Assembly (NCBI GenBank): GCA_028277585.1
Contig: JANQFY010000384.1
Coordinates: 1 to 32,779 of the forward strand
Source of the DNA: Sedimentisphaerales bacterium
Lineage (GTDB): Bacteria; Planctomycetota; Phycisphaerae; Sedimentisphaerales; Anaerobacaceae
Direction of reading: 5' to 3'
Length of the DNA stretch: 32,779 bases
Under the pieces are notes generated by a model. The model had not been told where the DNA came from. It saw nothing but the letters and a program-made list of their open reading frames with translations, and searched no databases. Within the stretch, counting starts at the first letter, position 1. The number at the start of each line of letters is the position of its first letter. Made by a program: the position numbers and the translations under genes. Shown here in pieces: positions 3,513 to 32,410 of the stretch.

Positions 3513-3929
3513 TCGCCAATCTCCTTCTACTCCGTCTCCTGAACGACTGAGGCGCCGACGCCGGGTCAGCCTGTCATCCGCCAATACTCCGGCCGACCAG
3601 TCGCAGTACAGCGGTCAACATACTCCAGCGGACTGGCCAATTCAACCCTCGTTGTTAGCCCCATAATTTCGGCAGATTTTGCAGGATAATATGTAACCGA
3701 TCCCGGGGGGTTGCCACTATAATATTTAGTCGGTGCGTCGCGCCCCGTATCAGTGCTGAAAATCCACCAAATCCTGTATTTATGCACAATAACGCAGTGA
3801 TTCGTTGCGTCTATACTTCGCGGATGGTTTGGCCCTGAGAGGGTCTGCGATGCGGTGGTGGCTCGCGAGAGCTTTTTCTGATTGACTCAGGCTGTTAAAA
3901 TAGAGAAAATACATTATTTAGGCATACTT
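3513..3929. other. 417-base intergenic region, divergent leader
   Basis: No convincing gene. It separates the minus-strand acyltransferase from the plus-strand export operon, so both promoters should be here. It contains an AT-rich island around 3660-3725 with a TATAAT-like box (3718-3723) but no good -35 partner. A short hairpin, GCTC-GCGA-GAGC, followed by five T residues sits at 3861-3877. A candidate promoter lies just before the operon. Confidence 0.5.
3882..3910 (+). promoter_or_regulatory. Candidate sigma70-type promoter for the export operon
   Basis: TTGACT (3882-3887) is followed after 17 bases by GAAAAT (3905-3910), four of six matches to the -10 consensus. The implied leader before the ATG at 3930 would be only about a dozen bases. 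The same TTG could formally act as a start codon for a 16-residue N-terminal extension, which I consider less likely. Weak evidence. Confidence 0.3.
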
Positions 3930-5822: not shown

Positions 5823-7713
5823 CAGCGGTAACAAGGCCGGCGGTGGGGGCAAGTCCTTCAAGGTCTTTGGTGTCCTGGTGATTATTGTGGCGATCGGCTT
5901 GGCGGTCGTCTGGCTCAAGGTGGTTCGGGCGGGCGAATCCTCGACCGCGGAAATGTCCACCTTCGCGGCCGAACGCGGCCCTCTGACCATCAGCGTGCTC
6001 GAATCGGGGACGATCAAGTCGCGCGACCAGGTGATTATCAAGAACGAGGTCGAAGGGCGAACCAACATCATCTTCTTGATCCCCGAGGGCACGCGGGTCA
6101 AGAAGGGGGATCTGCTGGTCGAGCTGGATGCCAGTACGATGGACGACGACAAGATCGAGCAGGAGATTCGGACGATGAACGCCGAAGCCTCCTACATCAA
6201 CGCCAAAGAGCAGTTGGAGATCACCAAGAGCCAGGCGATCAGCGACGTGAACGTTGCGGAATTGACGCTGGAGTTCGCGGTCCAGGATCTGGAGAAGTAC
6301 AAGAGCGGGCAGTTTCCCAACGACGAGACGGCCGCGCAGAACCAGATCGAGATCGCCCGCGAGAAGCTCACCCGCGACAAAGAGACGCTGAAATGGTCGG
6401 AGCGGCTGTTCGAGGAGAAGTACATCTCCCAGACAGAATTGCAGGCCGATACGTTGACCGTCAGCCAGGCCAGGAACAACCTGGAGTTGGCGGAGAACGA
6501 GTACGAACTGCTAAAGGACTACACCTACCATCGTCAGATCAAGCAGCTCAACAGTGATGTCGATCAGGCGCAGATGGCGCTGGAACGTACCCAGGCGAAA
6601 GCTCGGGCCGACGTTGTCCAGGCCGAAGCGGACTTCAAAGCCAAGGAGCAGGAATTCAAGCGTCAGAAGGCGCGGCTGGACAAGCTGATGGACCAGATCA
6701 GCAAGGCGAAGCTCTATGCTCCGGCCGATGGGATGGTGATCTACGCCACGACAGCGCGACGCGGCGGTTGGCGCGATAACCGCCAGCCTCTGGATGAGGG
6801 CGTGGAAGTGTATGAGCGTCAGGAACTGATCTATCTGCCGACCGCCGATTCGGCGATGGCGGAAGTGGATATCCACGAGGCGAGTCTGGAGAAGGTGAAG
6901 CTGGGACTTCCGGCCGTCATCACGGTGGACGCTCTGCCGGGCGAGCGGTTCATCGGCACGGTGGGCCGGATCGCACCCTTGCCCGACTCCCAGAGCATGT
7001 GGATGAATCCCGACCTGAAGGTCTACAACTCCGACATCTATCTCGAGAGCGAGTCTCCCGACCTGCGCACCGGCATGAGTTGCAAAGTCAACATCATCGT
7101 CGCCCAATACGAGGACGCGATCTACGTGCCCGTCCAGGCGGTGATTCGCGTCAAAGGTCAGCCTGCCGTCTACGTCGTCAAAGAGGACGGAACGACCGAA
7201 GAGCGAAAGGTGAAGATCGGCCTCGACGACAACAAGATGGTTGTGATCGAGAGTGGTCTGGAAGAGGGGGAAGTCGTCTGGTTGACGCCCCCGCTGAAAT
7301 CGGCCAGCGTCGAGTCGGGCTCCGAAGGCGTGTTGGGTGGAGATTCGGAAGAACAGGACGGTTCCACCGAGGAGCTGACGCAGCAGATCACCGACAAGCT
7401 CAAAGCGGCCAACGAAGCCAAGCCGGCCGCTCAGGCCGAGAAGGACGCATCCAAGGGGTCCGACGCGAACTTGATGGAGATGATGCGTAAAGGTATCCAG
7501 AACTTGCCGGCCGAGCAGCGTCAGGAGGCCCTGAAACGCATACAGAATATGACGCCGGCGCAACAGGCGCAGTTACGGAAGGCCATGCAAGGTGCGGCCG
7601 CGGGTGGCCAGGGACGTCGCGGCAGGCCCCAGCCGGGGCAGGGCGGACCACAGGGCGGTCGGCCGGCTGGACGCCCCAGACGTCCTCAAGGCGGTTCGGG
7701 AGGGGGCCAATAG
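5812..7713 (+). CDS. Periplasmic adaptor (MacA/HlyD family) with long C-terminal tail
   Basis: A 633-residue membrane-fusion protein. A single membrane anchor lies at about residues 17-36. The first lipoyl half-motif (EGTRVKKGDLLVELDAST) is at about 92-109, a long alpha-hairpin coiled coil runs over about 112-300, and the second half-motif (LYAPADGMVIY) is near 303-313. Beta-barrel and membrane-proximal domains continue to about 500, with VYVPVQAVIRV-type strands. Such adaptors connect an inner-membrane ABC transporter to a TolC channel. The last 130 residues are unusual: a charged helical region with EMMRKG and LPAEQRQEALKR heptad-like segments, then a tail made almost only of G, P, R and Q. 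The start has GAGG upstream and overlaps the TolC gene; the stop abuts the ATPase start. Confidence 0.9.
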   Translation: MTANSGNKAGGGGKSFKVFGVLVIIVAIGLAVVWLKVVRAGESSTAEMSTFAAERGPLTISVLESGTIKSRDQVIIKNEVEGRTNIIFLIPEGTRVKKGDLLVELDASTMDDDKIEQEIRTMNAEASYINAKEQLEITKSQAISDVNVAELTLEFAVQDLEKYKSGQFPNDETAAQNQIEIAREKLTRDKETLKWSERLFEEKYISQTELQADTLTVSQARNNLELAENEYELLKDYTYHRQIKQLNSDVDQAQMALERTQAKARADVVQAEADFKAKEQEFKRQKARLDKLMDQISKAKLYAPADGMVIYATTARRGGWRDNRQPLDEGVEVYERQELIYLPTADSAMAEVDIHEASLEKVKLGLPAVITVDALPGERFIGTVGRIAPLPDSQSMWMNPDLKVYNSDIYLESESPDLRTGMSCKVNIIVAQYEDAIYVPVQAVIRVKGQPAVYVVKEDGTTEERKVKIGLDDNKMVVIESGLEEGEVVWLTPPLKSASVESGSEGVLGGDSEEQDGSTEELTQQITDKLKAANEAKPAAQAEKDASKGSDANLMEMMRKGIQNLPAEQRQEALKRIQNMTPAQQAQLRKAMQGAAAGGQGRRGRPQPGQGGPQGGRPAGRPRRPQGGSGGGQ

Positions 7714-8469
7714 ATGGCTAAGGAAGCCTCCAGTGACGAGAAGAACGGCATTGTCAGGCTTGCCGATGCGCGCAAGACCTACCAGATGGGGACCGAGGAG
7801 GTCCGCGCCCTCGCGGGGGTGAGCACCTCGTTCGAGAAGGGCAGTTTCTGGGCGATCATGGGGCCCAGCGGATCGGGCAAGAGCACGATGATGAACGTCC
7901 TTGGGTGTCTGGACCGCTTGACCAGCGGCGCCTACTATCTGGACGGCCAGGATGTCAGCGAGATGGACGACGATTCGCTCAGCGAATTGCGGCTCAAGTA
8001 CCTGGGGTTCATCTTCCAGAGCTTCAACCTGATTCCTCAGTTGTCCGTGCAGCGGAATATCGAACTTCCCCTCTACTACCTTGGGTGGGACGCCGCTCAC
8101 AGCGCCGACCGCGCCAAGGAACTGGGCGAAGAGGTTGGGTTGGGCGACCGGCTGAACCATCGACCGACGGAGCTTTCCGGCGGGCAGATGCAGCGTGTCG
8201 CCGTCGCGCGGGCGCTAGCCAACGATCCGCAGATTATCTTCGCCGACGAGCCCACGGGCAACCTGGACTCCGTCACAGGCATTCAGATCATGGAGTTGCT
8301 GAGCAAGTTGAACCAACAGGGCAAGACCATCATCATGGTGACACATGAGCCGGACATCGCGGCCTATGCCAACAACCGGTTGCACATGATCGATGGTGTG
8401 ATCGATAGAATAGAAACAGGTGCACATGAGACACACGAAGATCGCCAGGAACATCTGGCTCGGCATTGA
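7714..8469 (+). CDS. ABC transporter ATP-binding protein, MacB/LolD type
   Basis: A 251-residue nucleotide-binding protein with a complete motif set: Walker [10 protein letters not shown] at 50-58, Q-loop glutamine at 102, signature LSGGQ at 154-158, Walker B IIFADE at 174-179 followed by PTGNLD, and the switch histidine at 211 (VTHEP). PTGNLD and the overall length are typical of MacB/LolD/FtsE-type subunits that drive mechanotransmission rather than membrane-spanning transport. In canonical MacB this domain is fused to the permease; here it is a separate chain. The ATG follows the adaptor stop directly (TAGATG), with GGGAGGGGG upstream. The 3' end overlaps the next gene by 44 bases in another frame. 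Confidence 0.95.
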
Positions 8470-9694
8470 AAATCTCCTGCTTCACAAGCTGCGTTCATTC
8501 CTGACCATGCTCGGCGTTGTTTTCGGCGTCGGTAGCGTCGTGGCGATGCTCTCGGTCGGCGAAGGCGCCAGCCAGGAGGCGCTGGCCAACATTCGCAAGC
8601 TGGGCAGCGACAACATCATCATCACCTCGGTCAAGCCGGTTGAGGATGAGCAGACCAGCACCCAACGTTCTCACATGAGCATCTATGGGTTGACCTACGA
8701 CGATCAGGCCCGGATCAGCCAGAGCTTCAGGCGCATTCGCAAGGCGGCGCCGGTCAAGCTGTTGCGCAAAGAGGCGCGTCTGCGTGAGCGCTCGATGGAA
8801 CTTCGCGTGGTTGGGACGACTCCCGAGTGGTTCGAATTGGTGCCGCGTGATATCGTGGCGGGCCGGGTGATCTATGCCGCGGATCAGGAAAAGCAGGCGC
8901 CCGTAGCGGTCCTGACCGAGTTCGGCGCCCGCAAGATCCTGGCGACCGAGGGGACGATCGGCCAGACCGTTCGCATCGGCGGGGACGAATTCGAGATCAT
9001 TGGGATCGTCAAGAGTGAGAGCGGCCAGGCGGGCAATATCCAGATCCCTGACGAGGACGTGGACATCTACATCCCGCTTGAAGTGGCGCGAGATTACTTC
9101 GGCGACATGTTCACCAAGATGACCTCGGGCTCGTTCCAGCGTGAGAAGGTGCAGTTGCATCAGATCATTGTCCAGGCAGACGGCCCCGACTCGGTCGAAT
9201 CCACCGCGGCCGGGATCGAGCGGATGCTTGAGCGGTTTCACAAGAGGAAGGACTACGAGATGAGCGTTCCTTTGGCGCTGCTCAAACAGGCCGAGGCGAC
9301 CAAACGCACGTTCAATATCGTTCTGGGTTCAATTGCCGGGATCAGTCTGCTCGTGGGCGGGATCGGGATCATGAACATCATGCTGGCCTCGGTGACCGAA
9401 CGGACTAGAGAGATTGGAATTCGCCGGGCGATCGGCGCCAAACGCCGGCAAATCGTCTATCAGTTCCTGATCGAGACGGTCGTCCTCTCCATGTTCGGCG
9501 GTTTGATCGGTCTGGGCGTGGGGACTCTGATTCCGTTTCTGATCACCTACTTCTCCGGCATGGTGACGGTGGTGACGATGAACAGTATTCTCTTGCCTCT
9601 GTTCATCAGTATGGGTATTGGGATTCTCTTCGGTCTCTACCCGGCGGTAAACGCCGCGCGGGTCGACCCGATCATCGCGTTGCGGCACGAGTAG
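8426..9694 (+). CDS. ABC transporter permease, FtsX/MacB type (copy 1)
   Basis: A 422-residue permease with the MacB layout: one N-terminal membrane helix (about residues 20-45, MLGVVFGVGSVVAMLSVG), a large periplasmic core domain, then three C-terminal helices in the FtsX domain containing GGIGIMNIMLASVTERTREI. The coupling region EIGIRRAIGAKR, which touches the ATPase, is intact. I chose the ATG at 8426 because AACAGG lies just upstream and the paralogue starts at the same residue; a GTG six bases earlier is also possible. It overlaps the ATPase gene by 44 bases. It aligns without gaps to the next gene over its whole length. Confidence 0.93.
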   Translation: MRHTKIARNIWLGIENLLLHKLRSFLTMLGVVFGVGSVVAMLSVGEGASQEALANIRKLGSDNIIITSVKPVEDEQTSTQRSHMSIYGLTYDDQARISQSFRRIRKAAPVKLLRKEARLRERSMELRVVGTTPEWFELVPRDIVAGRVIYAADQEKQAPVAVLTEFGARKILATEGTIGQTVRIGGDEFEIIGIVKSESGQAGNIQIPDEDVDIYIPLEVARDYFGDMFTKMTSGSFQREKVQLHQIIVQADGPDSVESTAAGIERMLERFHKRKDYEMSVPLALLKQAEATKRTFNIVLGSIAGISLLVGGIGIMNIMLASVTERTREIGIRRAIGAKRRQIVYQFLIETVVLSMFGGLIGLGVGTLIPFLITYFSGMVTVVTMNSILLPLFISMGIGILFGLYPAVNAARVDPIIALRHE

Positions 9695-9775
9695 TTCGTA
9701 CGGCGCTGTGCATCCCCAGGCGATACGCGGTACGCCGTGCGGCACGCGAATCGATCTCTGCAGGAGGATGTGCGC

Positions 9776-11044
9776 ATGCGACAGACGAAGATCGCTCGAA
9801 ACATCCGGCTGGGCATCGAGAACCTGCTGCTCCACAAGCTGCGCTCCTTCTTGACGATGCTCGGCGTGGTGTTTGGGGTCGGCAGTGTTGTGGCGATGCT
9901 TTCGGTGGGCGAGGGCGCCAGCAAGGAAGCCATGGCGCAGATCCGCAAGCTGGGCAGCAACAACATCATCGTCTCCTCCGTCAAACCGGTCGAGGACGAG
10001 GCGACCAACACGCAGCGGTCGATGATGAGCATCTTCGGCCTAACCTATGACGATTACGAGCGGATCGCCAAGAGTTTCGATACGATTCGTCAGGTTACCC
10101 CCGTGAAGCTGACGCGCAAGGAAACGCGACTGCGCGAACGAGCCATGGAACTGCGTGTGGTCGGGACGACTCCCGAATGGTTCAGATTGGTGCCGCGCAC
10201 CATTCTGGCCGGCCGCACGATCCGAGCGGAAGACCAGGAGAAGCTGGCGCCGGTGGTCGTGCTGACCGAATTCGGGGCCCGCAAGATTCTGGCGACCGAG
10301 AGTGTCATCGGTCAGACCGTGCGCATTGGAGGCGACGAATTCGAGATCATCGGCATCGTCAAGAGCGAGGGCGGCGAGGCCGGCAATCTTCAGATCCCGG
10401 ACCAGCAGGTCGACGCTTATGTCCCCATGGAGGTCGCGCGCCGCTACTTTGGCGACATCTTCACCAAGATGACCTCCGGCTCGTTCCAGCGGGAGAAGGT
10501 GGAGTTGCACCAGATCATCATCCAGGTCGACAAGGCCGAGCATGTCGAAGCGACCGCCGCCGGTATCGAACGGATGCTCGAGCAGTTCCACAAGAAGAAG
10601 GACTACTCGATGAGTGTCCCTCTGGCCCTGCTCAAGCAGGCCGAGGCGACCAAGCGGACCTTCAACATCGTGCTCGGCTCGATCGCGGGAATCAGTCTGC
10701 TGGTCGGTGGGATCGGAATCATGAACATCATGCTTGCCTCGGTAACCGAGCGGACGCGGGAGATCGGTATCCGCCGCGCGATCGGCGCCAAACGCCATCA
10801 AATCATCTACCAGTTCCTCATCGAAACCGTCGTGCTCTCGACCATAGGCGGGTTGATCGGCCTGGGCGTCGGCACGCTGATCCCGTTTCTGATTACCTAC
10901 TTCTCGGGGATGGCGACTGTGATGACGTTGAACGGGATCCTGTTGCCCCTGTTCATTAGTATGGGAATCGGGATTCTCTTTGGCCTTTACCCTGCCATCA
11001 ACGCGGCCAAGGTCGATCCGATCATCGCGCTGCGTCACGAGTAG
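9776..11044 (+). CDS. ABC transporter permease, FtsX/MacB type (copy 2)
   Basis: Also 422 residues and colinear with copy 1 with no insertion or deletion; by eye roughly four of five residues match. A run of about 60 residues from MSVPLALLKQAEATK through IGAKR is identical. Differences cluster in the periplasmic core domain, for example around residues 60-115 and 205-265. The start is fixed by AGGAGG at 9762-9767, eight bases before the ATG; an in-frame ATG at 9737 lacks such a site. An 81-base gap separates it from copy 1, the only sizeable gap within the operon. A heterodimer with copy 1, or alternative homodimers sharing the ATPase, are both possible; the transported substrate is not evident. 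Confidence 0.93.
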   Translation: MRQTKIARNIRLGIENLLLHKLRSFLTMLGVVFGVGSVVAMLSVGEGASKEAMAQIRKLGSNNIIVSSVKPVEDEATNTQRSMMSIFGLTYDDYERIAKSFDTIRQVTPVKLTRKETRLRERAMELRVVGTTPEWFRLVPRTILAGRTIRAEDQEKLAPVVVLTEFGARKILATESVIGQTVRIGGDEFEIIGIVKSEGGEAGNLQIPDQQVDAYVPMEVARRYFGDIFTKMTSGSFQREKVELHQIIIQVDKAEHVEATAAGIERMLEQFHKKKDYSMSVPLALLKQAEATKRTFNIVLGSIAGISLLVGGIGIMNIMLASVTERTREIGIRRAIGAKRHQIIYQFLIETVVLSTIGGLIGLGVGTLIPFLITYFSGMATVMTLNGILLPLFISMGIGILFGLYPAINAAKVDPIIALRHE

Positions 11045-12786: not shown

Positions 12787-14889
12787 ATGAGAACCAGAAC
12801 GTATCTTGTGTTGGTGTTTTCGCTCCTTGTTGCTTCGACCGGGCTTGCCCAGGACGAGGACTTCTATGATGCAACTGTGTTGCGCACCCTTCACCTGGAG
12901 TTCTCCCAACCTGACTGGTGGAGCCAGTTGGAGGCGAACTACGATGCGAAGGAGAATATCCTGGCGACGCTGACTGTTGATGACGAGGTCTATGAGGACG
13001 TCGGGGTCCGATTTCGAGGGAATACGTCTTACCGGAAGACCGAAAACTCGCAGAAGAAGTCCTTCAACATCGAGATCGACTACGTCCTCGAGGATCAGCG
13101 TCTCATGGGCTACAAGACGCTCAACCTGGTCAACTGCATGAGCGATCCGACGTTCATGCGTGAGGTGCTGTACTCGAATACGGCGCGTCGACAGATCCCC
13201 AGTGCGAAGGCCAATTTCGTGCGTCTTGAAATCAACGGCGAGAACTGGGGTGTCTATGCCAATGTCCAGCAACTCAACGCCGAGTTCATTGAGGACTGGT
13301 TCGCGAGCAATGAGGGGACGCGCTGGCGTGCTCAAGGGACGATGGGGGGCGGCGCTCCGGGCCCGGGACCCGGCGGGGGAGGCCCTCCCCGGCAGAGCGT
13401 CCAGACGGTTGATGATAGTGTCGATGCCGTGCCTCTGGCCGAAGGCGGTGGGGTCACCAGCGGCGTTGCTGCACTGACCTGGCAGGGCGAGGGCTCGGCC
13501 ACGTATGAGGCGGCCTATGAACTGAAGAACACCAACCAGGATGATCCCTGGGCCAGCCTTATCAACACGTGCGACGTGCTGAACAACACGCCGCTGGCGC
13601 AGCTTCCCGACGAATTGGATTCCGTGCTCGATGTCGATCGTGCCCTTTGGGTTTGCGCCTTTGAGGTCATTTTTCAGGACGATGACGGCTACGTCAACAA
13701 GCGGGGCAGTGACTACGGTCTCTACTATGAACCTGAGACCGGGCGGCTGCATTTGATGCAGTATGACGGCAACGAGTGCATGTCCAATGAGCAGTGGTCG
13801 CTGTTCTACCGAGAGGACGACCCGGTCGTGCCCCTGATGTACCGCCTGATGGCCATCGACGCGTATCGTCAGCGGTACCTGGCCCATGCCCGCACCATTC
13901 TGGACTCGTTTCTGACGGAGGAGATGCTGTTCGCAGAGATCGACGCCTATCGCGCGCTTATCGAAGAGCAGGTGAAGTTGGATGACAAGAAGCTGTATTC
14001 CAATCAGGCGTTCGACAATGGGATCGAGGATCTGAAGGAGTTCGTGCAGGAGCGGCGGGACTATCTGTTGAGCAACCGGGCGCTCTTGCGATCGACTCCC
14101 GAGATCCTCGCGGTTGAGCAGGAGGCCTTCCAGAGCGAGCAGGGCGAGACGCTTGCGGTGACGGCGACCGTCGGCGACGCTGTCTCTGTCTCCGAGGTGC
14201 GGTTGTTCATCGCGGCGGGCCCCTTTGCATTCTTCGATTCGATAGCCATGGCCGATGACGGCCGCAGCGGCGACGGCGAGGCCGGGGATGGTGTCTGGGG
14301 CGCGAGTTTGTCAGGTTATCCCGCAGGGACGCAACTGCGCTACTACGTGCAGGCGATTGCCGATGACGGGAACGGCACCGCGACGTTCAGCCCGGCCGGT
14401 GCTGAGCACGAGGTCTACACGCACCTCCTGACCTATGGCGACACGACGTCCTCATCGGTTGTCTTCAACGAGCTGATGGCGCGGAACGAGAGCACGCTTG
14501 CCGATCCGCAGGGGGAGTACGACGACTGGATCGAGTTGAAGAACACCAGCGATCAGGTTGTCGATCTGACCGGTATGTACCTGAGTGACAACCCGGACAA
14601 TCCGCTCAAGTGGTCTTTCCCGGATGGGGCGCAGATCGAGCCGGGTGGGTATCTGCTGGTCTGGGCCGATGAAGATGGGGGCGATGAACCGGGTTTGCAC
14701 GCCAACTTCCGCCTCGCGGGGGACGGGGAGACCATCTGGCTGTTCGATACGATCGAGAATGGGCACACGCTGCTGGACTCCGTGACGTTCGAGGATCTGG
14801 ATGAGGATCAGAGCATGGGGCGTTCTCCGGACGGCGAAGGGCCCATGCAGGTACTGTCGATTCCGTCCCCGACGCGATCCAACGACTGA
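12787..14889 (+). CDS. Exported CotH-family protein with C-terminal lamin-tail domain
   Basis: A 700-residue protein with a signal peptide cut near residue 21 (STGLA, then QDEDF). Residues about 30-430 match the CotH layout: VGVRFRGNTS (73-81), KKSFNIEID (90-98), LNLVNC...FMREVLYS (112-130), VYANVQQLN (156-164), and DDDGYVNKRGSDYGLYY near 298-314, followed by LHLMQYDGNE (321-330). CotH proteins are spore-coat or secreted kinases and phosphate-binding proteins; a kinase role here is only inferred. The block before the second aspartate reads QYDGNE rather than the commoner W-D-x-D, so activity is uncertain. A Gly/Pro loop (MGGGAPGPGPGGGGPP) interrupts the fold at 186-201. A lamin-tail domain covers about 570-690. 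GGAGGTG precedes the ATG. Confidence 0.87.
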   Translation: MRTRTYLVLVFSLLVASTGLAQDEDFYDATVLRTLHLEFSQPDWWSQLEANYDAKENILATLTVDDEVYEDVGVRFRGNTSYRKTENSQKKSFNIEIDYVLEDQRLMGYKTLNLVNCMSDPTFMREVLYSNTARRQIPSAKANFVRLEINGENWGVYANVQQLNAEFIEDWFASNEGTRWRAQGTMGGGAPGPGPGGGGPPRQSVQTVDDSVDAVPLAEGGGVTSGVAALTWQGEGSATYEAAYELKNTNQDDPWASLINTCDVLNNTPLAQLPDELDSVLDVDRALWVCAFEVIFQDDDGYVNKRGSDYGLYYEPETGRLHLMQYDGNECMSNEQWSLFYREDDPVVPLMYRLMAIDAYRQRYLAHARTILDSFLTEEMLFAEIDAYRALIEEQVKLDDKKLYSNQAFDNGIEDLKEFVQERRDYLLSNRALLRSTPEILAVEQEAFQSEQGETLAVTATVGDAVSVSEVRLFIAAGPFAFFDSIAMADDGRSGDGEAGDGVWGASLSGYPAGTQLRYYVQAIADDGNGTATFSPAGAEHEVYTHLLTYGDTTSSSVVFNELMARNESTLADPQGEYDDWIELKNTSDQVVDLTGMYLSDNPDNPLKWSFPDGAQIEPGGYLLVWADEDGGDEPGLHANFRLAGDGETIWLFDTIENGHTLLDSVTFEDLDEDQSMGRSPDGEGPMQVLSIPSPTRSND

Positions 14890-16353: not shown

Positions 16354-19062
16354 ATGTACTGCCGATCCCATTATCTGTCTGCACTAATCGCACTTGTCTG
16401 TCTCTCTGTCATCCCGGCCGCTGTGTTCGGCAGGACGCTGGAGGTCGAGAGCACCGGCAAGGTTGGCTACGCCACCATTCAAGCGGCCGTAGATGCGGCG
16501 AGCGAGGGGGATAGCATTGTCATTCATCCTGGGACCTATACAGGACCGGGCAATCGCGACATCGACCTGCGGCGCAAATCAATCACTCTTCGTAGCACTG
16601 ATCCGGCCGACCCGGCGGTCGTCGAGGCAACCGTTATCGATTGCCAGGGGGCAACTGGTTCGGCCCATCGCGGCTTCTATGCGATGGATTTCGCCGGGGC
16701 GATTTCCGGACTGACGATTATAAACGGACTGGCGTCGGTTGGCGGCGCCGTCTATTGCGAGAACGCGACGGTTGTGCTGTCATCGTGTCGGATTCTGGAC
16801 AATGCGACGTTGCCCGGCACCGATAAGACGGATGTCGATGGCGGCGCCGGCGGCGGTCTCTACGCCGTCGCCTCGGCTGTCCAGATCAGCAACTGCCTGA
16901 TCAGCGGCAACACCACGGGCGACGGGGCCGAATCACTGGTCAGTCTCGGCGGCAACGGGGGCAACGGCGCTGGGGTATTCTCACGCAACTCAGTGGTCTA
17001 CCTGTCCGACTCCATTCTCGCCGACAATGTCACAGGCTCGGGAGGAGACTCCAATGTCATGGCGGGCAATGGCGGTTCCGGTGGTGGCATTTACGGCGAC
17101 GCGCTGGTCTTGACGAACACCACCGTAGCGAACAACCGCACCGGTGCCGGGGGCCGTGGTCCCGTGGGCGGTCAGGGCGGTCTCGGAGCGGGCGTCTATG
17201 GTATGCGGGCTACGATCCAGCGTAGCGCCATCAAAGGCAATACGACCGGCGTCGGAGGAGACAGTACCGATGCGTTCAAGGGCACCGGCGGCCAGGGCGG
17301 CGCCGGGGGCGGCGTGTTTTGTCAGGACTCGCTGGAGATCGCCGATTCGTTGGTGGCCGGCAATCGATCCGGTCGCGGCGGCAGCGCCATGACGGTAGGC
17401 CCGGACGGGCGAGGCGGAGGCATCTGGTGCGCCCTGGGACGTATCGAACGCTGCACCATCGTCGAGAATGCCTCCATGCAGCAGAGAAGTGGCGTGGCGG
17501 GCCAGGGCGCCGGGGTGCTCTGCTCGGCCGATACCGTCATCACCAATTCCATTCTGTGGGGCAACACGCCGGATCAACTGGCGGGGCAGAACTGTGACAA
17601 CGTAACCTACTGCAATATCGAAGACGCGGCTTGCACGACCAGTGCCGGCGTCCTTGCCGTCGATCCACTCTTTGCACAGGCAGGGCAGTGGACCGATCCT
17701 GACAGCTCCAAGACGGCGGTGACGCCCGACGATCCCCAGGCCATTTGGATGGCGGGCGACTATCATCTGGCCGACGCGTCGCCGTGCATCGACGCGGGCG
17801 ATCCCGATTACGGGCGTGATCCGAATCAAACCGATCTCGATGGAAATCCGCGTCTGGCGGGAACGGCGGTCGATATCGGCGCCTACGAGATCCAGAGTCT
17901 CGTACCGGTCTATCGCTTCGAGTCGCCGAAGACGGGCAGGCACTTCTTCACGGCGATCGAGGGCGAAAAGGACCGGATCATCGCAATGTATCCTGACGCC
18001 TGGATGTTTGAAGGTGTTGCTTACTATGCCTATCTGCGATCGACGGCCGCGGGCCTGCTGCCGATCCACCGCTTCTGGTCGGGCAAGCTGGGCAGTCACT
18101 TCTATACGATCGATGCTGGTGAGAGAGACAGATTGCTGGCAAATTACCCAGATGTTTGGACTTACGAAGGGACGGTGTTCTATGCCTATCCGGTGGGTAG
18201 CCAACCGGCGGACGCGAAGCCTGTCTACCGCTTCTGGTCCGATGTGTTGGGTGCTCACTACTACACGATTGACGAAGCCGAGAGGCAGCTCTATCTCAGC
18301 GGCCAGGCCGGTGCCTGGGTCTACGAAGGAATCGCTTGGTATGCCTTCGATACGTCGGGAACGGGCGAGACGCCGGAGCAGCCGGGGGCTGCGACCGTCT
18401 ACGAGTTGAGCGCCGGGGCCGATGCGGTTTCCTACCAAATCCAGTTGAAGGCCTATCTGGATGGTCAGGAGGCTCGCATCGAGGGTGCGAATCTGGAATT
18501 CGTCTCGGCGACGAGCCGGATGCAGATGGCTCTCGACGCTACGGCGATGACGGCCAAGCTGAACGAACTCCACGTGGAGAGCGAACTGCTCCAGTATGAC
18601 GGGGCGGCCAGCCAGATCGGTGGAACGATTTCGATTCCGTTCTCCCTCTACGTCAGCGCCTTCTTCGACACGACAACGCCGCGCGGTCCCTATGCCATCG
18701 ATCCCAAGACGCTGTCCTTCCCAGCGGCGACCGAAGTTGGCTCCGTTGCAGCCGGTGAGGCCTTCTCCATCGTTGGCTCGGGTGTTGTGGAAGGGGACAA
18801 GTTCGACATCAACCTGGTCCTGAATCCGACCGACTTCCTGGTCGATGGCGTGGCGACCTTCGCCGATCTCAACGCGGGCGATCAACTCAACATGAGCATG
18901 GCCGGTCCCTTCCAGTGGCACCGCCAACAGCAGGAAGATACCCTGTTGGAGACGACCTTCAAGGGGCACGTGCTGAAACTCTGTGTGGTCTCCGCCCGCG
19001 TCCAAACGATGGGTCAGTGGCGTGGGAAACGCGCCCCCGGCAGTGAGAACGCGGCAAAATAG
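16354..19062 (+). CDS. Exported right-handed beta-helix protein with three DUF5648-like repeats
   Basis: A 902-residue protein. The signal peptide ends near residue 26 (AAVFG, then RTLEV). TIQAAVDAASEGDSIVIHPG (about 42-61) is the standard opening of planctomycete parallel beta-helix proteins of pectate-lyase-like fold. The helix runs to about residue 510 with many glycine-rich coil turns (GGxGGxGxGVY/F) and repeated SxxxGNTTGxGG turns. It ends with a choice-of-anchor-Q-like segment (SPCIDAGD, VDIGAYE). Three repeats of about 45 residues then follow (about 515-660), each with RF(E/W)S, G-x-H-F/Y-Y/F-T, an ER segment, W-x-(F/Y)-E-G and YAY/YAF, as in DUF5648. The last 230 residues are a beta-rich domain I do not recognise. 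It probably binds or processes a glycan at the cell surface. GGAGGAGGT gives a strong ribosome site. Confidence 0.85.
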   Translation: MYCRSHYLSALIALVCLSVIPAAVFGRTLEVESTGKVGYATIQAAVDAASEGDSIVIHPGTYTGPGNRDIDLRRKSITLRSTDPADPAVVEATVIDCQGATGSAHRGFYAMDFAGAISGLTIINGLASVGGAVYCENATVVLSSCRILDNATLPGTDKTDVDGGAGGGLYAVASAVQISNCLISGNTTGDGAESLVSLGGNGGNGAGVFSRNSVVYLSDSILADNVTGSGGDSNVMAGNGGSGGGIYGDALVLTNTTVANNRTGAGGRGPVGGQGGLGAGVYGMRATIQRSAIKGNTTGVGGDSTDAFKGTGGQGGAGGGVFCQDSLEIADSLVAGNRSGRGGSAMTVGPDGRGGGIWCALGRIERCTIVENASMQQRSGVAGQGAGVLCSADTVITNSILWGNTPDQLAGQNCDNVTYCNIEDAACTTSAGVLAVDPLFAQAGQWTDPDSSKTAVTPDDPQAIWMAGDYHLADASPCIDAGDPDYGRDPNQTDLDGNPRLAGTAVDIGAYEIQSLVPVYRFESPKTGRHFFTAIEGEKDRIIAMYPDAWMFEGVAYYAYLRSTAAGLLPIHRFWSGKLGSHFYTIDAGERDRLLANYPDVWTYEGTVFYAYPVGSQPADAKPVYRFWSDVLGAHYYTIDEAERQLYLSGQAGAWVYEGIAWYAFDTSGTGETPEQPGAATVYELSAGADAVSYQIQLKAYLDGQEARIEGANLEFVSATSRMQMALDATAMTAKLNELHVESELLQYDGAASQIGGTISIPFSLYVSAFFDTTTPRGPYAIDPKTLSFPAATEVGSVAAGEAFSIVGSGVVEGDKFDINLVLNPTDFLVDGVATFADLNAGDQLNMSMAGPFQWHRQQQEDTLLETTFKGHVLKLCVVSARVQTMGQWRGKRAPGSENAAK

Positions 19063-26153: not shown

Positions 26154-27434
26154 GTGACCGGATTCGAAGAGGCCCGAAACCTCCTGGCTCAGTTCAAGGG
26201 GGATTCGTATCGGTGCGGAGCCGATGCCTTGACCCAGGTGGGGCCGATTGTCACTGGCTTCGGGACGCGGGCGGCGCTGGTTCGTGGGACCTTCGCGCAG
26301 AGCGGGGAGGGCGTCCAGACGATTCGCACGTCGTTGGCCCAAGAGGGTGTGTACCTTGGCGCGGAGATCAGGGGCGCCCGACCCAACGCGCCCAAGGACG
26401 ACGTGATTCGGATCGCGAGCCAGTTACGAGCGGCGCGCCCTGACGTTGTCGTTAGCTTCGGTGGGGGCAGCACCATTGACGCGACAAAGGCGGCCAGTGT
26501 GCTCAGTGTCCTCGGAGGCGACGCCGGTGACTATTTCGGATTGTCTCAGGTTACTGAAGCGCTCCATCGGTCGGATCGAATCTTGACGCCGCATGTTGCG
26601 ATCCAGACGTTGGCCGGTTCGGCCGCCCATCTGACGAAGTACTCTAACGTCACCAATCTGGCGACGGGGCAGAAGAAGCTCATTGTTGACGACGCCATTG
26701 TCCCGGCCCACGCGCTGTTCGATCCCAGCGTTACTTGCGGCGTTCCTGCGGGGCTGACCGCCGACGGAGCCCTCGATGGCGTCTCGCATATGCTCGAAGT
26801 CCTCTACGGCGCCGTGGGTAAGCCCAGTTATGAGAAGGTCGCCCAGATTACCCAGGTTGGACTGCACCTGATCCTCAAGTACCTGCCGCTGGCGATTGCG
26901 GATCCGCAGGACATCCGGGCACGAACGGCGCTGGTGCTCGCGACCGATCTGGGGGGATACGCCATCATGATCGGCGGCACGAACGGAGGGCATTTGACGA
27001 GCTTTTCATTGGTCGACATTCTGCCGCACGGGCGGGCGTGCGCCCTGATGAATCCGTACTACACGGTGTTCTTCGCCCCGGCAATTGAGGAGCCCCTCCG
27101 CCTGGTGGGAAGGACCTATCGCCGGGCGGGGCTGACCCAGGCGGATGTCGACGACATGCGAGGTCGGGACCTGGGGATCGCGGTCGCTGAAGCGATGTTG
27201 GCATTCGCTCGGCGAATCGGCTTCCCGACGCGACTGGCTGATATCGATGGGTTCAGCCAGTCGCACATTGAGCGGGCCCTGAGGGCGGCCAAGGACCCTC
27301 AGTTGGCAATGAAGCTGCAGGGCATGCCGATCCCGCTTACCGCCGAGATGGTGGATCAGTACATGGGCTCTGTCCTTGAGGCCGCTCGGGATGGCTGCTT
27401 GCAGGCCGTCAGAAACGTGCCGTTGGAAGGGTGA
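26154..27434 (+). CDS. Iron-containing (group III) alcohol dehydrogenase
   Basis: A 426-residue enzyme of the Fe-ADH family, which interconverts alcohols and aldehydes or ketones using NAD(P). The nucleotide-binding loop GGGSTIDATK is at about 103-112. Metal ligands are all visible: D208 and H212 (DGVSH), H280 (GGTNGGH) and H292 (LPHGRAC). The length is somewhat above the family's usual 380-400. A GTG start at 26154 is supported by GGAG eight bases upstream in AGAGGAGCC. The glycerate kinase gene begins six bases after its stop. Together they suggest an aldehyde or hydroxyacid semialdehyde route ending in glycerate, for example tartronate-semialdehyde reduction, but related enzymes also act on hydroxybutyrate or lactaldehyde, so the substrate is open. 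Confidence 0.92.
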   Translation: MTGFEEARNLLAQFKGDSYRCGADALTQVGPIVTGFGTRAALVRGTFAQSGEGVQTIRTSLAQEGVYLGAEIRGARPNAPKDDVIRIASQLRAARPDVVVSFGGGSTIDATKAASVLSVLGGDAGDYFGLSQVTEALHRSDRILTPHVAIQTLAGSAAHLTKYSNVTNLATGQKKLIVDDAIVPAHALFDPSVTCGVPAGLTADGALDGVSHMLEVLYGAVGKPSYEKVAQITQVGLHLILKYLPLAIADPQDIRARTALVLATDLGGYAIMIGGTNGGHLTSFSLVDILPHGRACALMNPYYTVFFAPAIEEPLRLVGRTYRRAGLTQADVDDMRGRDLGIAVAEAMLAFARRIGFPTRLADIDGFSQSHIERALRAAKDPQLAMKLQGMPIPLTAEMVDQYMGSVLEAARDGCLQAVRNVPLEG

Positions 27435-27440
27435 GTGTCG

Positions 27441-28565
27441 ATGAAAGTTGTTGTCGCGATGGATTCGTTCAAGGGCAGCCTCACGGCTGTGCGGGCCTGT
27501 TCGATCGCCGCCGAGACGATCGAACAGGCCCTGGCCGGAACAGAGGTAGTACTCAAGCCGATGGCCGATGGCGGCGAGGGAACCGCCGCGGCGTTGATGG
27601 CGGCTCGGCAAGGGCAATGGATTGAACACAAAGTGACAGGTCCCTTGCCTTCGACGCCGGTTGACGCCGGTTTCGTTTGGCTACCTGAGGATCGCACTGC
27701 AGTGGTGGAGATGGCTTCGGCCAGTGGTCTCGAATTGATCGGCGAGGAGCAACGTAATCCTCTGTTCACGACCACCTACGGTACAGGCGAGTTGCTCGGC
27801 GCCGCTATCCGACACGGTGCCGAACGCATCCTGCTGGGTGTCGGGGGCAGTGCTACCGTTGATGGCGGGGTCGGAGCGGCGATGGTGCTGGGCTGGCGTT
27901 TCCTGGATGAGGAGGGGCGGGACATCTCTTTGGGAGGGGGTAGTCTCAGCAGGATAAGCGAGATCGCTCCCCCTTCAGAATCGGTCGATATTCCCGTTGA
28001 TGTGCTCTGTGATGTGGATAGTCCCTTGTGCGGTCCGCACGGCGCTGCTCGCGTCTATGGTCCCCAGAAGGGCGCGACGCCCGAAATGGTCGAGACGCTT
28101 GATCGGGGGCTGGCTCACTTGGCCAGTCAGGTCCGAGAACAACTCGGCGCTGAGATTGCGAGGATTCCCGGCTCAGGCGCCGCTGGCGGTCTCGCGGCCG
28201 GGGCGGTAGCGTTTCTGGATGCCCGTCTCGTTTCAGGAGTTGAGGTTGTCATGGACGAGACACAGCTTCGTGAGGCCGTCGCGGATGCCGATTGGGTCAT
28301 CACGGGTGAGGGATGCTTCGACCATCAGTCTCTGCGGGGCAAGGTCGTTTCCGGGGTCGCGCGGGTCGCCCGGGAAGGCGGCGCCCGGGTCGCGGTGCTT
28401 GCCGGCCGTGTTCTCGTATCCCCTCCGGCTCTGGAGATATTGGGGATTGACGTTGCCCTGGCGTGCATGGACGACTCGATGAGTCTCAGGCACGCTCTGA
28501 CGCACAGCGAAGAGCTTCTCCGGGCGGCCGCCTCCCGGCTGGCGCGCGATCATCTGGCCCTTTAA
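27441..28565 (+). CDS. Glycerate kinase (GlxK/GarK family)
   Basis: A 374-residue enzyme. Family features include the N-terminal DSFKGSLTA (about 8-16), MADGGEGT (about 42-49), YGTGELLGAAI, the GVGGSATVDGGVGA loop (about 133-146), and ITGEGCFDHQSLRGK near 289-303, which closely follows the TGEGR-D-x-Q-S/T-x-x-GK pattern of this family. Members phosphorylate D-glycerate, most often to 2-phosphoglycerate, feeding lower glycolysis. The length matches the usual 370-380 residues. I chose the ATG at 27441 because GGAAGGG lies nine bases upstream; a GTG at 27435 is only three bases from it. Transcribed with the alcohol dehydrogenase. Confidence 0.94.
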   Translation: MKVVVAMDSFKGSLTAVRACSIAAETIEQALAGTEVVLKPMADGGEGTAAALMAARQGQWIEHKVTGPLPSTPVDAGFVWLPEDRTAVVEMASASGLELIGEEQRNPLFTTTYGTGELLGAAIRHGAERILLGVGGSATVDGGVGAAMVLGWRFLDEEGRDISLGGGSLSRISEIAPPSESVDIPVDVLCDVDSPLCGPHGAARVYGPQKGATPEMVETLDRGLAHLASQVREQLGAEIARIPGSGAAGGLAAGAVAFLDARLVSGVEVVMDETQLREAVADADWVITGEGCFDHQSLRGKVVSGVARVAREGGARVAVLAGRVLVSPPALEILGIDVALACMDDSMSLRHALTHSEELLRAAASRLARDHLAL

Positions 28566-28719: not shown

Positions 28720-29352
28720 ATGAGTAAGTATCTGTTTTATGGGACATTTCTGGTAGTCATGGCCAATCTCTGTCTGGCGGCGCCTGAGCCGGCTATCGTT
28801 CAGGGGCCGGGGCAGTGGACAGTCGAAGTCAAATTCGAGCAGCCGCAGCAACTGGTGCTGCCCTGGGGCGGCAATGGCGCAGCCCGGTACTGGTACACGA
28901 TTCTGACCGTGACCAACCGAACGGGGCGGGATGTGGATTTCTACCCGCGCTGTGAACTGATGACCGATACTTTCCAGATCGTGCCGGCCGGCCGGGGGGT
29001 TCCGGCGGTTGTGTTCGATCGGATCAAGCAGCGCCACCAGAGCCGGTACCCGTTCCTCGAGATGCTGGATCGCGCCGATAACCGTATCCTGCAGGGCGAA
29101 GACAATGCCAAGGATATCGTCGTAATCTGGCGCGACTTCGATCCGCGCGCCACGGGCTTCAAGGTCTTCATTACGGGCCTGAGCAATGAGACGGCGATCG
29201 TGAATCATCCTGTCGCAGTCGATGGAAACGGGACGCCCGTCAAGATCTTCCTCCGCAAAACTCTGCAACTGGACTACGCTTTCCGAGGCGATCCGACCCT
29301 GAGAGATGCGGTCGAGGTCGTCTACAAGGACAAAGCCTGGGTCATGCGGTAG
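28720..29352 (+). CDS. Exported protein of unknown function
   Basis: A 210-residue protein with a signal peptide ending near residue 20 (NLCLA, then APEPA). The mature part is mostly beta-strand: WTVEVKFEQPQQLVLPWG, WYTILTVTNRTGRDVDFYP, VVIWRDFDPRATGFKVFITG, VKIFLRKTLQLDYAF. The T-N-R-T-G motif in the second strand resembles Ig-like or transthyretin-like domains in which a protein compares paired tissue of strands, but no family was recognised. Only one cysteine remains after signal removal. It is probably periplasmic. GGAGAGGGG lies about seven bases before the ATG. Convergent with the fusion kinase gene across a hairpin. Confidence 0.75.
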   Translation: MSKYLFYGTFLVVMANLCLAAPEPAIVQGPGQWTVEVKFEQPQQLVLPWGGNGAARYWYTILTVTNRTGRDVDFYPRCELMTDTFQIVPAGRGVPAVVFDRIKQRHQSRYPFLEMLDRADNRILQGEDNAKDIVVIWRDFDPRATGFKVFITGLSNETAIVNHPVAVDGNGTPVKIFLRKTLQLDYAFRGDPTLRDAVEVVYKDKAWVMR

Positions 29353-29397: not shown

Positions 29398-32364
29398 TCA
29401 TGCTACGCCCATTCTGCGCAGACGCTGAATCAACTGCGGCAGTGTGTCGAAGCGATTCAGCCGTACGCCCACGGCTCTGCCTCCCGAATGGAGTTCTACG
29501 AACTCGGTGCTTGGATCGAGATTGAAGCGTCGGTAGAATGCCCGCCGGAGAAACTCCTTCACCTCAGTGACGTCTGCTTGCTCCGTATCGACGTGCACCT
29601 GGAAGTAGTCCCCCTGTCCGGCCGCGTTGATGCGCACTGCGACAGCCTCGGACCCAAACGCTCGTTTGAGCATTGCCTCGGCCAGATCGATCAAGGCCAG
29701 CCCTCGGAAGAAGTTGGATCCTTCGAGGCGGTGGAACTCGGGAGGATTCTTAGCCGATAGCGCCGCGTCATCCAGACCCCGGTTGTAATCAAATGCCGTT
29801 GCGCCATGCCGCTCCAGCCAGCGATTCAGGAGGTCGGGGCCCGTGTGATCATGCTCCCAGGCGAGTTGGCGCTCCATATCTTCCCGAGAGGGAAGGGCGT
29901 CGAGGGGCAGATCGATACAGCGATCGCCACGTTGGGACAGCGTGACGTACTCGATCCACTGATCCGGGTGACGGACCAGATAGAAGCACTTGGCCACTTC
30001 AGCGAAGAGGTACGCCAGCATGGCGCGCAACGGGACTCCCTCCTCTTGGACGACCTCGCCTGAGGGGGTGGCCCGTCTCAGAGGAGGATCGCGCCAGCCG
30101 GCGAAGATGGACTTCAGGGTCGCCTCCGCTTGGTCCGCCGCGGCGGGCCGGTTGAGCCGATGGGTGTCCATCAGTTCCTGGATGTACCAGCAGCGTTGGG
30201 CGTCGATGCGCTGTTGCAGTTCGTCGCGTTTGATCAGAAGGGGCAGGCGCAGCAGCAATGAGCAAAGCGATCGGCGACTTTCCAGGGACAGGACGCCGTC
30301 GGTAATCAGATCGTCTTCGACCTGCTGGAAGAAGTCTCGGTTCAGGGGCAGTTGGGTCAGTAGGGCTGCGATCTCCGCTGCCTTGCCTGTCATCTTGCGG
30401 GCTTCACTCGTTGTCAAGGGGCCGGCGCCGGGCGCTTCGGCGTAGCTGCCCCCGGACCAGCGCCAGGCATCCTGGTCGCGCGGCACAGTGTACGGAAAGA
30501 TAATCTGAAAGCGATCGGCGGGAACGGGAAACGTTCCGATGATGCGGTAGTTGTCCTTCGGATCCGATGAGATCAGCGTGCCGCACCCGGCCTGGCCCTT
30601 CTGTTCGGTAGCCTGGTCCAACGAGCCGGCGCGTACCCCCGTGCCATACTCGGCTTGGCAGGCCAGGTGCACGAGCAAGTCCGGCGGGATGCCGATCTCG
30701 AACAGGGCGTTGATCGCGTTCTTGGTCGCGACGGTGACGGCTGAGGAACTGGAAAAGCCGCCTTGAGGGATGTTGCCCGTCGAGGCCAGATGCAGGCCCT
30801 GGAACCGGCCGCGACCGAGATGGGCCCGGACCTTGGCGCCCAGCGTGCCCTCGCGCAGCGTGCGCATAGAGGCGATCGCGTTGCTAACCAGCGAGAAGGG
30901 GCGCCGCATATTCGTGCTGACCCAGAGCGTCATCGGAGGTAAGGGCCGTTGCTTTCTGCGCCGCTGTTCGATCTCTTCGTCGCTGAAATAGCCCAGTGAG
31001 AGCAGAACGGTCTCGCTCATGTGCGTGCCGAATTCCTCGTACGTGTGCAGATCGGCGACGTCGCTGCCCGGATACATCACGGGTGAATCGGAGGGAATCG
31101 AATTGATATTCTCGCGGTACTTCGGGTCCGTTGGGTGCAGATGGATCCGGCCGTCGGCCGCACTTTGGACGAGCATAACGATCTGCTCGGCGCCGGCGGC
31201 GTTGCCGGCGCCGATCGGCATCTGCCAGGCGGGCCCAAAGAACCGGACCATGTCGGGATGCATGAAGGCAATGCGCAGGCGCCCTCCAGAGATGCCGATT
31301 CCGAGCGGTTGATCTCCGCGAAATGCCAGCTCCTCTCTCTCGATCATCGCGGCAAGTTCTTCCAATTGCCGGGCGATCGAGGCGACCTGTCCAGCCGGTC
31401 GGTCGGCCGCAATGGCTCGGGCGATGTCCTCAGCCTCCTGTTCCTCGGGGAAGGGCAGCGAGCCGGTGGTTGCCAGAATTCCCTCCAGCAGGGCCAGGTC
31501 CCTGGGTCGCGTCACGTCGGAGCAGAGCAGGTCGTACTCGGGATCGCTCGGTGTTGTGGTCAGCGTACGGATGTCCCCGCCGTCGCGACTGATGGCTTCG
31601 ATGATATCGGTCAGATAGTATTGGCCCTGGGCGTTGGCGTTGCTCAGATTGCGCAGGTAACGCATCAGTGTTGTCGCGCGGATCACGTAAAGCGGGCAGT
31701 TCCCCTCCGTCAGGCCCAGCAGGTGTTGTCGCTTCGCCTCATCCCGTTCTTGGGCTATGTCCTTCTCCTCGATGATGTGCGTGACATGGCCGTTCCCGTC
31801 CCGTACGATGCGTCCTCTGCCTTGATTCTTGGGCGGTTCATAGCGGGCGGTCAGAAACGTCAGATCCGCCGGACGTTGCCCCTGGCGGTGTTGCTCACAG
31901 AGACGCCGAAACACCGAGGACGGGACGACTCGGTCACCCATTGTGATGACGAGCAGTGGGTCCCGAGCGATCAGGGTCGGGACACAAAATGCCTCGAAAG
32001 CCGCGAACGCCGTCCCACCGGTGGGGTTGTCAGAGTGGATGTACGTGTTGTCGTTGCCCAGTGCCGCTGAGACCTCCTCATGGCGATAACCCACGACGCC
32101 GATTGCCGGCGACGGGCTGAAACGGCGGAATGCTTCGATCGAATGGCGGGCCAGCGGGGTACCATGCACCAGTTGAATGCACTTCGGATCGCGGCCGAAC
32201 CGAGTGCCTTTGCCCGCAGCCAGAACGACCAGAACGGGTGTGTCCGTTGTGATGGCATCAAACGCGGCGAGGGTCCCGGGGTTGAGGATCTTTGCTTCGG
32301 CAAGCGTCGCCGCCTTTTCCAGAGGGCGCCCTACGCCGGGTCGGTGTGTCTGATCTTTTTCCAT
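29398..32364 (-). CDS. Fusion of GlmU-type nucleotidyltransferase and GHMP sugar kinase
   Basis: A 988-residue cytoplasmic protein. The N-terminal domain (about 42-300) has the GlmU-type sequence series: VLAAGKGTRFGRDPK (46-60), PTGGTAFA (114-121), TMGDRV (141-146), GRGRIVRD (182-189), IIEEKD (197-202), NCPLY, and AQGQYYLTDII (245-255), as in UDP-GlcNAc pyrophosphorylase; the left-handed beta-helix acetyltransferase part of GlmU is absent. From about 350 a GHMP kinase begins: RLRIAFMHPDM (in place of the R-x-N-L-x-G-E-H-x-D sugar motif), NIPQGGFSSSSAV (531-543) as the phosphate-binding loop, and GVRAGSLDQATE (576-587). The order of domains recalls Fkp of Bacteroides, but the pyrophosphorylase half is of another type. 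Probably makes an NDP-sugar from a free sugar. Start: ATG at 32364, or a GTG nine bases earlier. Confidence 0.85.
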   Translation of the reverse strand: MEKDQTHRPGVGRPLEKAATLAEAKILNPGTLAAFDAITTDTPVLVVLAAGKGTRFGRDPKCIQLVHGTPLARHSIEAFRRFSPSPAIGVVGYRHEEVSAALGNDNTYIHSDNPTGGTAFAAFEAFCVPTLIARDPLLVITMGDRVVPSSVFRRLCEQHRQGQRPADLTFLTARYEPPKNQGRGRIVRDGNGHVTHIIEEKDIAQERDEAKRQHLLGLTEGNCPLYVIRATTLMRYLRNLSNANAQGQYYLTDIIEAISRDGGDIRTLTTTPSDPEYDLLCSDVTRPRDLALLEGILATTGSLPFPEEQEAEDIARAIAADRPAGQVASIARQLEELAAMIEREELAFRGDQPLGIGISGGRLRIAFMHPDMVRFFGPAWQMPIGAGNAAGAEQIVMLVQSAADGRIHLHPTDPKYRENINSIPSDSPVMYPGSDVADLHTYEEFGTHMSETVLLSLGYFSDEEIEQRRRKQRPLPPMTLWVSTNMRRPFSLVSNAIASMRTLREGTLGAKVRAHLGRGRFQGLHLASTGNIPQGGFSSSSAVTVATKNAINALFEIGIPPDLLVHLACQAEYGTGVRAGSLDQATEQKGQAGCGTLISSDPKDNYRIIGTFPVPADRFQIIFPYTVPRDQDAWRWSGGSYAEAPGAGPLTTSEARKMTGKAAEIAALLTQLPLNRDFFQQVEDDLITDGVLSLESRRSLCSLLLRLPLLIKRDELQQRIDAQRCWYIQELMDTHRLNRPAAADQAEATLKSIFAGWRDPPLRRATPSGEVVQEEGVPLRAMLAYLFAEVAKCFYLVRHPDQWIEYVTLSQRGDRCIDLPLDALPSREDMERQLAWEHDHTGPDLLNRWLERHGATAFDYNRGLDDAALSAKNPPEFHRLEGSNFFRGLALIDLAEAMLKRAFGSEAVAVRINAAGQGDYFQVHVDTEQADVTEVKEFLRRAFYRRFNLDPSTEFVELHSGGRAVGVRLNRFDTLPQLIQRLRRMGVA

Positions 32365-32410
32365 ACGCTCCACTCGAACGCTCTACGCTTGAAACTCCTC
32401 CGAACAATCT

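Follow-up and report, generated by a model that had tools for sequence, protein, structure and literature searches.

The window (the whole 32,779-nucleotide stretch of DNA that was analysed) carries on its minus strand a gene in which a GlmU-type domain is followed, in the same chain, by a three-helix linker and a galactokinase-type GHMP kinase domain (Table 1); we refer to this protein and its orthologs as family A. Translation from the ATG at 32364 gives 988 amino acids and translation from a GTG at 32373 gives 991, both readings ending at 29398 (residue numbers below follow the 988-residue reading from the ATG), and no internal stop codon was found in the open reading frame over its whole translated length. 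The initial annotation, which gave no strand, had described a GlmU-like domain and a GHMP kinase in one chain, a description borne out by the open reading frame, the domain matches and the orthologs, and the motifs that it listed (AAGKGTRFG, GRGRIVRD, IIEEKD, AQGQYYLTDII and MHPDM) are all found in the translation. Family libraries recognize this protein of about 990 residues through partial domain matches only. The gene is convergent with an open reading frame at 28720-29352, and the nearest metabolic genes in the window, encoding an iron-containing alcohol dehydrogenase followed directly by a glycerate kinase (26154-28565, plus strand; likely a small catabolic operon), lie on the strand opposite to it. 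Elsewhere, the plus strand holds a tripartite export operon (3882-11044, with consecutive genes for an outer-membrane efflux protein, an HlyD-like fusion protein, an ABC ATPase and two MacB/FtsX permeases), a 902-residue and probably secreted protein with DUF5648 and choice-of-anchor Q domains (16354-19062), and two proteins with Lamin Tail Domains (34-2394 and 12814-14889), the second of which also has a CotH kinase domain.

Table 1. Positions of the fusion gene and its parts in the window, and of related kinases at other loci
Feature	Location	Strand	Evidence or source
Fusion gene, family A	29398..32364	minus	Open reading frame and translation; 73 orthologous loci
GlmU-type pyrophosphorylase domain, approximately residues 40-305	31450..32256	minus	NCBIfam glmU, E = 3.8e-33; PDB GlmU; VIA Z 30
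Three-helix linker, approximately model residues 287-343	31336..31506	minus	AlphaFold2 helices 287-299, 306-319 and 324-343
Galactokinase-type GHMP kinase with family-specific insertions, approximately model residues 353-969	29458..31308	minus	PF00288; VIA Z 25
Kinase-only member of family A	L087, 3999-6164		Armatimonadetes MAG
Family C kinase	L123, 5499-7193
Family C kinase	L124, 5395-7047
Family C kinase	L125, 5572-7221
Family C kinase	L126, 645-2297

The NCBIfam glmU match of the amino-terminal domain spans residues 48-273; GlmU in the PDB is matched at E = 1.3e-19, and model residues 42-302 align with the GlmU structures 3spt and 1g97 at a VIA Z score of about 30. All matches to GlmU models stop at position 200-244 of about 450, before the acetyltransferase half, so that the acetyltransferase domain is absent, as had been proposed at the outset, and the protein falls short of the curated whole-protein glmU cut-off (115 bits versus 366.85). 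The same early proposal held that the layout is like that of Fkp, with another type of pyrophosphorylase; grouping of the amino-terminal half with Fkp was not seen, GlmU being matched instead, and a Pfam scan of the fusion protein gave no match to Fucose_pyrophosphorylase (PF07959) at E 0.01. Among 57 aligned full-length orthologs, residues G51, G53, R55, K61, G143-D144, G182/G184/R185, E199, D202, N222, Q246, Q248, Y250, T252, D253, D283 and T285 are invariant, and by alignment these cover the GlmU NTP loop, catalytic lysine, metal aspartate and sugar-phosphate site. In 48 of the 57, Asn113 stands where GlmU has its uracil-contact glutamine (Q76 of the Escherichia coli enzyme), and UTP is therefore a likely but not certain substrate. 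In the tree of this domain, family A forms one clade (support 99/98) with a second fusion family, family B; GlmU sequences are the nearest neighbors of this clade and other nucleotidyltransferases fall outside it, a placement to be read with caution because of long branches. Judged by these sequence comparisons, the amino-terminal domain of family A is derived from GlmU.

AlphaFold2 models built from the family alignment reached a pLDDT of 87.7 (whole protein) and 91.2 (carboxyl-terminal kinase alone). Residues 515-588 match Pfam GHMP_kinases_N (PF00288; E = 1.4e-10), and the kinase model aligns with human galactokinase 6gr2 at a VIA Z score of 25.2 (375/386 residues, 2.8 Å); galactokinases score 24-25 and human GalNAc kinase 23.9, with lower values for heptokinase WcbL (20), mevalonate kinase (20) and FKP fucokinase 9iip (19.2). 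The domain has about 620 residues versus about 390 for galactokinase, a difference due to the family-specific insertions, and scores 29 bits against the NCBIfam galactokinase cut-off of 443; it had been described earlier as a large GHMP kinase with an atypical sugar motif (MHPDM). All 57 orthologs keep R362, H369, D371, E572 and D583, and R362, D371, E572 and D583 are spaced as are R592, D601, E751 and D762 of FKP, which are shown or proposed functional residues of that enzyme (PMC11982464). The domain departs from galactokinase in having FMHPDM for GEHTDY, an extra invariant arginine (Arg364), NAAGQGD rather than GxGxGG as motif 3, and a P-loop that is invariantly one residue shorter (PxGGFSSSSA versus PxGxGLSSSA) and that the model predicts with low confidence.

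A single scan of a species genome collection found orthologs of the fusion at 73 loci (50-71% identity), all of them MAG or uncultured by record title, in Planctomycetota, Verrucomicrobiota, Kiritimatiellota, Lentisphaerota, Acidobacteriota, Bacteroidota, Deinococcota and other phyla; several of the contigs are at least 100 kb long, and one ortholog lies on a 6.5 Mb chromosome. The 57 full-length orthologs align end to end with the window protein at 53-69% identity, and neither set of catalytic residues varies among them, so that the residues whose presence the initial annotation had asked about are found in both active sites. The occurrence of the same protein at 73 loci, with its motifs invariant in 57, rules out a chance fusion or an assembly join. 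Two candidate natural split genes, at L055 and L082, were rejected because they look like ORF-start and frameshift artefacts, tblastn giving a single continuous in-frame match at L055 and two matches that meet in different frames at L082. No match to the fusion was found on plasmids. The distribution of family A is patchy and rare: matches at E < 1e-100 occur in 5 of 61 genomes in a sample of close relatives (the window's own counted), family A matches in 7 of 148 genomes in an order-level sample, and the fusion in 1 of 391 genomes in an even phylum-level sample, this one being the window genome. The gene tree of family A mixes phyla (16 changes versus a minimum of 7), which suggests inter-phylum transfer, to which bin contamination could contribute.

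Family B is a second planctomycete fusion, of about 905 residues (L094, L095 at 1494-4199, L096, L099, L127, L128 and L129; L097, in which the gene is broken by masked bases, was left out). It shares with family A the order of its parts, a GlmU-type domain followed by a GalK-like kinase, and differs in having the galactokinase signature PF10509, GHMP_C, a GRHVDH motif, a normal P-loop and an insertion in the amino-terminal domain; in L127 it adjoins genes for GDP-mannose dehydratase, GDP-fucose synthase and a polysaccharide flippase. Family C consists of stand-alone galactokinase-like kinases of about 550 residues with the motif GTHIDH or GMHIDH (Table 1). These adjoin a NagB-like gene in four genera, with a NagA-like gene upstream in at least two (both kinds of neighbor scoring under their curated cut-offs), a setting that ties this kinase branch to amino-sugar metabolism and makes family C a candidate amino-sugar kinase. 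The kinase profile of family A matches that of families B and C over 460 columns (E = 1.7e-10) and that of plain galactokinases in the P-loop region only (E = 0.0019); together with the common clade of the amino-terminal domains of families A and B, this profile match makes a single origin of the GlmU-kinase fusion plausible. In the kinase tree the branch of family A is so long that the family is unplaceable relative to family B, family C and GalK. The kinase-only protein of L087 nests inside family A and retains the same kinase motifs; its gene belongs to an exopolysaccharide operon, where it is flanked on one side by Wzz/Poly_export genes and on the other, with a 4-bp overlap, by a nucleotide-sugar SDR gene.

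Around the fusion genes themselves we found no conserved neighbor gene or operon, the 110 adjacent genes representing 155 Pfam families. Co-directional neighbors within 90 bp are a NagZ-like GH3 gene in two Opitutaceae and a sulfatase gene in one; the GH3 gene lies directly downstream in L039 (4-bp overlap) and L032 (24 bp), and its products score under the NagZ curated cut-off. Operon context was set aside as a guide to substrate, since it offers only scattered sulfatases, GH3 proteins and SDR epimerases, all common in such genomes; the presence of NagA was likewise an uninformative correlate (NagA in 9 of 10 genomes).

Taken together, the domain matches and the structural model indicate that the protein is probably a bifunctional kinase and pyrophosphorylase for sugar salvage. 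In a first step, the galactokinase-type domain would phosphorylate a free hexose-type sugar at C1 at the expense of ATP, with Asp583 as general base, Arg362 as transition-state stabilizer, His369 and Asp371 gripping the sugar and the Ser-rich P-loop gripping Mg-ATP; in a second step, the GlmU-derived domain would join the sugar-1-phosphate to an NTP, likely UTP, yielding an NDP-sugar for glycan synthesis. A role for the NDP-sugar product is favored by the exopolysaccharide context of L087 and by the family B neighbors in L127, whereas the bifunctional reading is weakened by the lack of a conserved neighbor, the short P-loop, Asn113, and the sub-cut-off scores of the GH3, NagA-like and NagB-like neighbors. 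Our tentative choice of substrate is an N-acetylhexosamine (GalNAc or GlcNAc), which would be converted with UTP to UDP-HexNAc. It is favored by the GlmU-type sugar-1-phosphate site, by the NagZ-like GH3 genes downstream in L039 and L032, and by the likeness of the kinase profile to families B and C, the latter of which stands beside NagB-like and, in part, NagA-like genes. Of the early proposals, that of an Fkp-like layout with a different type of pyrophosphorylase stands; on the substrate pair, which had been suggested to be possibly new, the evidence leans weakly toward N-acetylhexosamine. We would more speculatively, and with some doubt, regard these proteins as undescribed one-protein sugar activators, here confined to uncultured bacteria and spread across phyla, that turn a salvaged amino sugar or uronic acid into a UDP-sugar by means of a divergent galactokinase-type site with a shortened P-loop, possibly acting on a sugar without a known 1-kinase of the same fold (such as GlcNAc or MurNAc).

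A uronic acid, either galacturonate or glucuronate, converted by the same bifunctional mechanism to UDP-uronate as in a zebrafish fusion, is an unlikely substrate. The sugar-motif glutamate of human and E. coli galactokinases is Met368 in the fusion, a change that, with the invariant extra Arg364, would suit a carboxylate; however, local galactokinases carry glycine at this position (GRVELIGGHTDY), and loss of the glutamate therefore says little and was discarded as proof of a uronate. Similarly, the kinase-only gene of L087 overlaps an epimerase-like gene, but this SDR neighbor has no model over cut-off; and although the zebrafish fusion DrGKUP provides a precedent (PMC3938481), the kinase fold is nearest to galactokinase and GalNAc kinase among the folds compared above.

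We consider it quite unlikely that the sugar is galactose or another neutral Gal-type sugar, in which case the same two steps would give UDP-Gal without GalT and so bypass the Leloir pathway. The best fold match of the kinase is indeed a galactokinase, and no PF10509 galactokinase was found in the window's own genome, which is 80% complete; yet a Pfam scan found no PF10509 signature in the fusion protein either, and its amino-terminal domain is of the GlmU type and not the GalU/USP type. GalE is the next gene downstream in L075 (about 237 bp), but this is a single case.

It is also improbable that the kinase domain is dead or regulatory and that the pyrophosphorylase alone works. The atypical short P-loop and the NAAGQGD motif would be in keeping with such a loss, and yeast Gal3p, a relative altered in its P-loop, is a sensor and not a kinase. 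Against this, Arg362, Asp371, Glu572 and Asp583 are invariant, the SSSS loop is nearly so across many phyla, and the kinase-only member has kept the same motifs.

Of 27 genomes that carry the fusion, more than half have it as their top GlmU-type pyrophosphorylase match, and about ten have canonical GlmU as well. Among the genome of the Opitutaceae locus L039 (G538) and 37 relatives, canonical GlmU over the curated cut-off was found in 0 of 38, and a GlmU match at E 1e-25 in 6 of 38, each within an open reading frame of about 1000 residues. That the fusion stands in for GlmU, supplying essential UDP-GlcNAc where the canonical enzyme is absent, is most improbable despite its rank among the matches, because about ten carriers have both proteins and the Opitutaceae relatives lack canonical GlmU whether the fusion is present or absent, and because the fusion is so patchy and rare.

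The bifunctional enzyme that we favor invites comparison with several known systems. GlmU has the same pyrophosphorylase fold and motif set, whereas the fusion (about 30% identity, below the GlmU cut-off) has a kinase in place of the left-handed beta-helix acetyltransferase. Galactokinase and the human GalNAc kinase GALK2 share with the fusion kinase their fold (Z 24-25), the positions of the catalytic Arg/Asp/Asp and the GxxDQ motif, and are set apart by the fusion's GlmU-type domain, insertions, FMHPDM motif and shorter P-loop. Fkp of Bacteroides fragilis also has, in one chain, an amino-terminal pyrophosphorylase, a three-helix linker and a carboxyl-terminal GHMP sugar kinase with equivalent catalytic residues (by motif spacing), and the linker helices of the fusion are much like those described between the domains of FKP (PMC11982464); unlike in Fkp, the amino-terminal domain is GlmU-derived and the kinase is nearer to galactokinase than to fucokinase. 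The layout is not wholly new, since zebrafish DrGKUP, a glucuronokinase and putative UDP-GlcA pyrophosphorylase (the latter activity not confirmed for the proteins tested), likewise places a bacterial-type nucleotidyltransferase ahead of a GHMP sugar-1-kinase (PMC3938481). By its published architecture this animal protein is distinct, with about 620 residues (260 + 357) and a kinase of the glucuronokinase type, whereas the galactokinase-like kinase of the fusion alone has about 620. Literature searches found no GlmU-GHMP fusion and no pairing of GlmU-derived and galactokinase-type domains. Fusions of a salvage kinase and a pyrophosphorylase were thus already known (Fkp, DrGKUP), and what seems to be new, as judged from the papers searched, is the pairing of a GlmU-derived with a galactokinase-type domain. 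If active, the protein would join Fkp and the animal glucuronokinase fusion as a third type of kinase-pyrophosphorylase fusion, one made of GlmU-type and galactokinase-type parts, and would add a salvage branch to the carbohydrate metabolism of uncultured, probably polysaccharide-degrading bacteria. Because Fkp is in wide use for the one-pot synthesis of sugar nucleotides, a counterpart that makes a UDP-sugar (perhaps UDP-HexNAc) would be useful.
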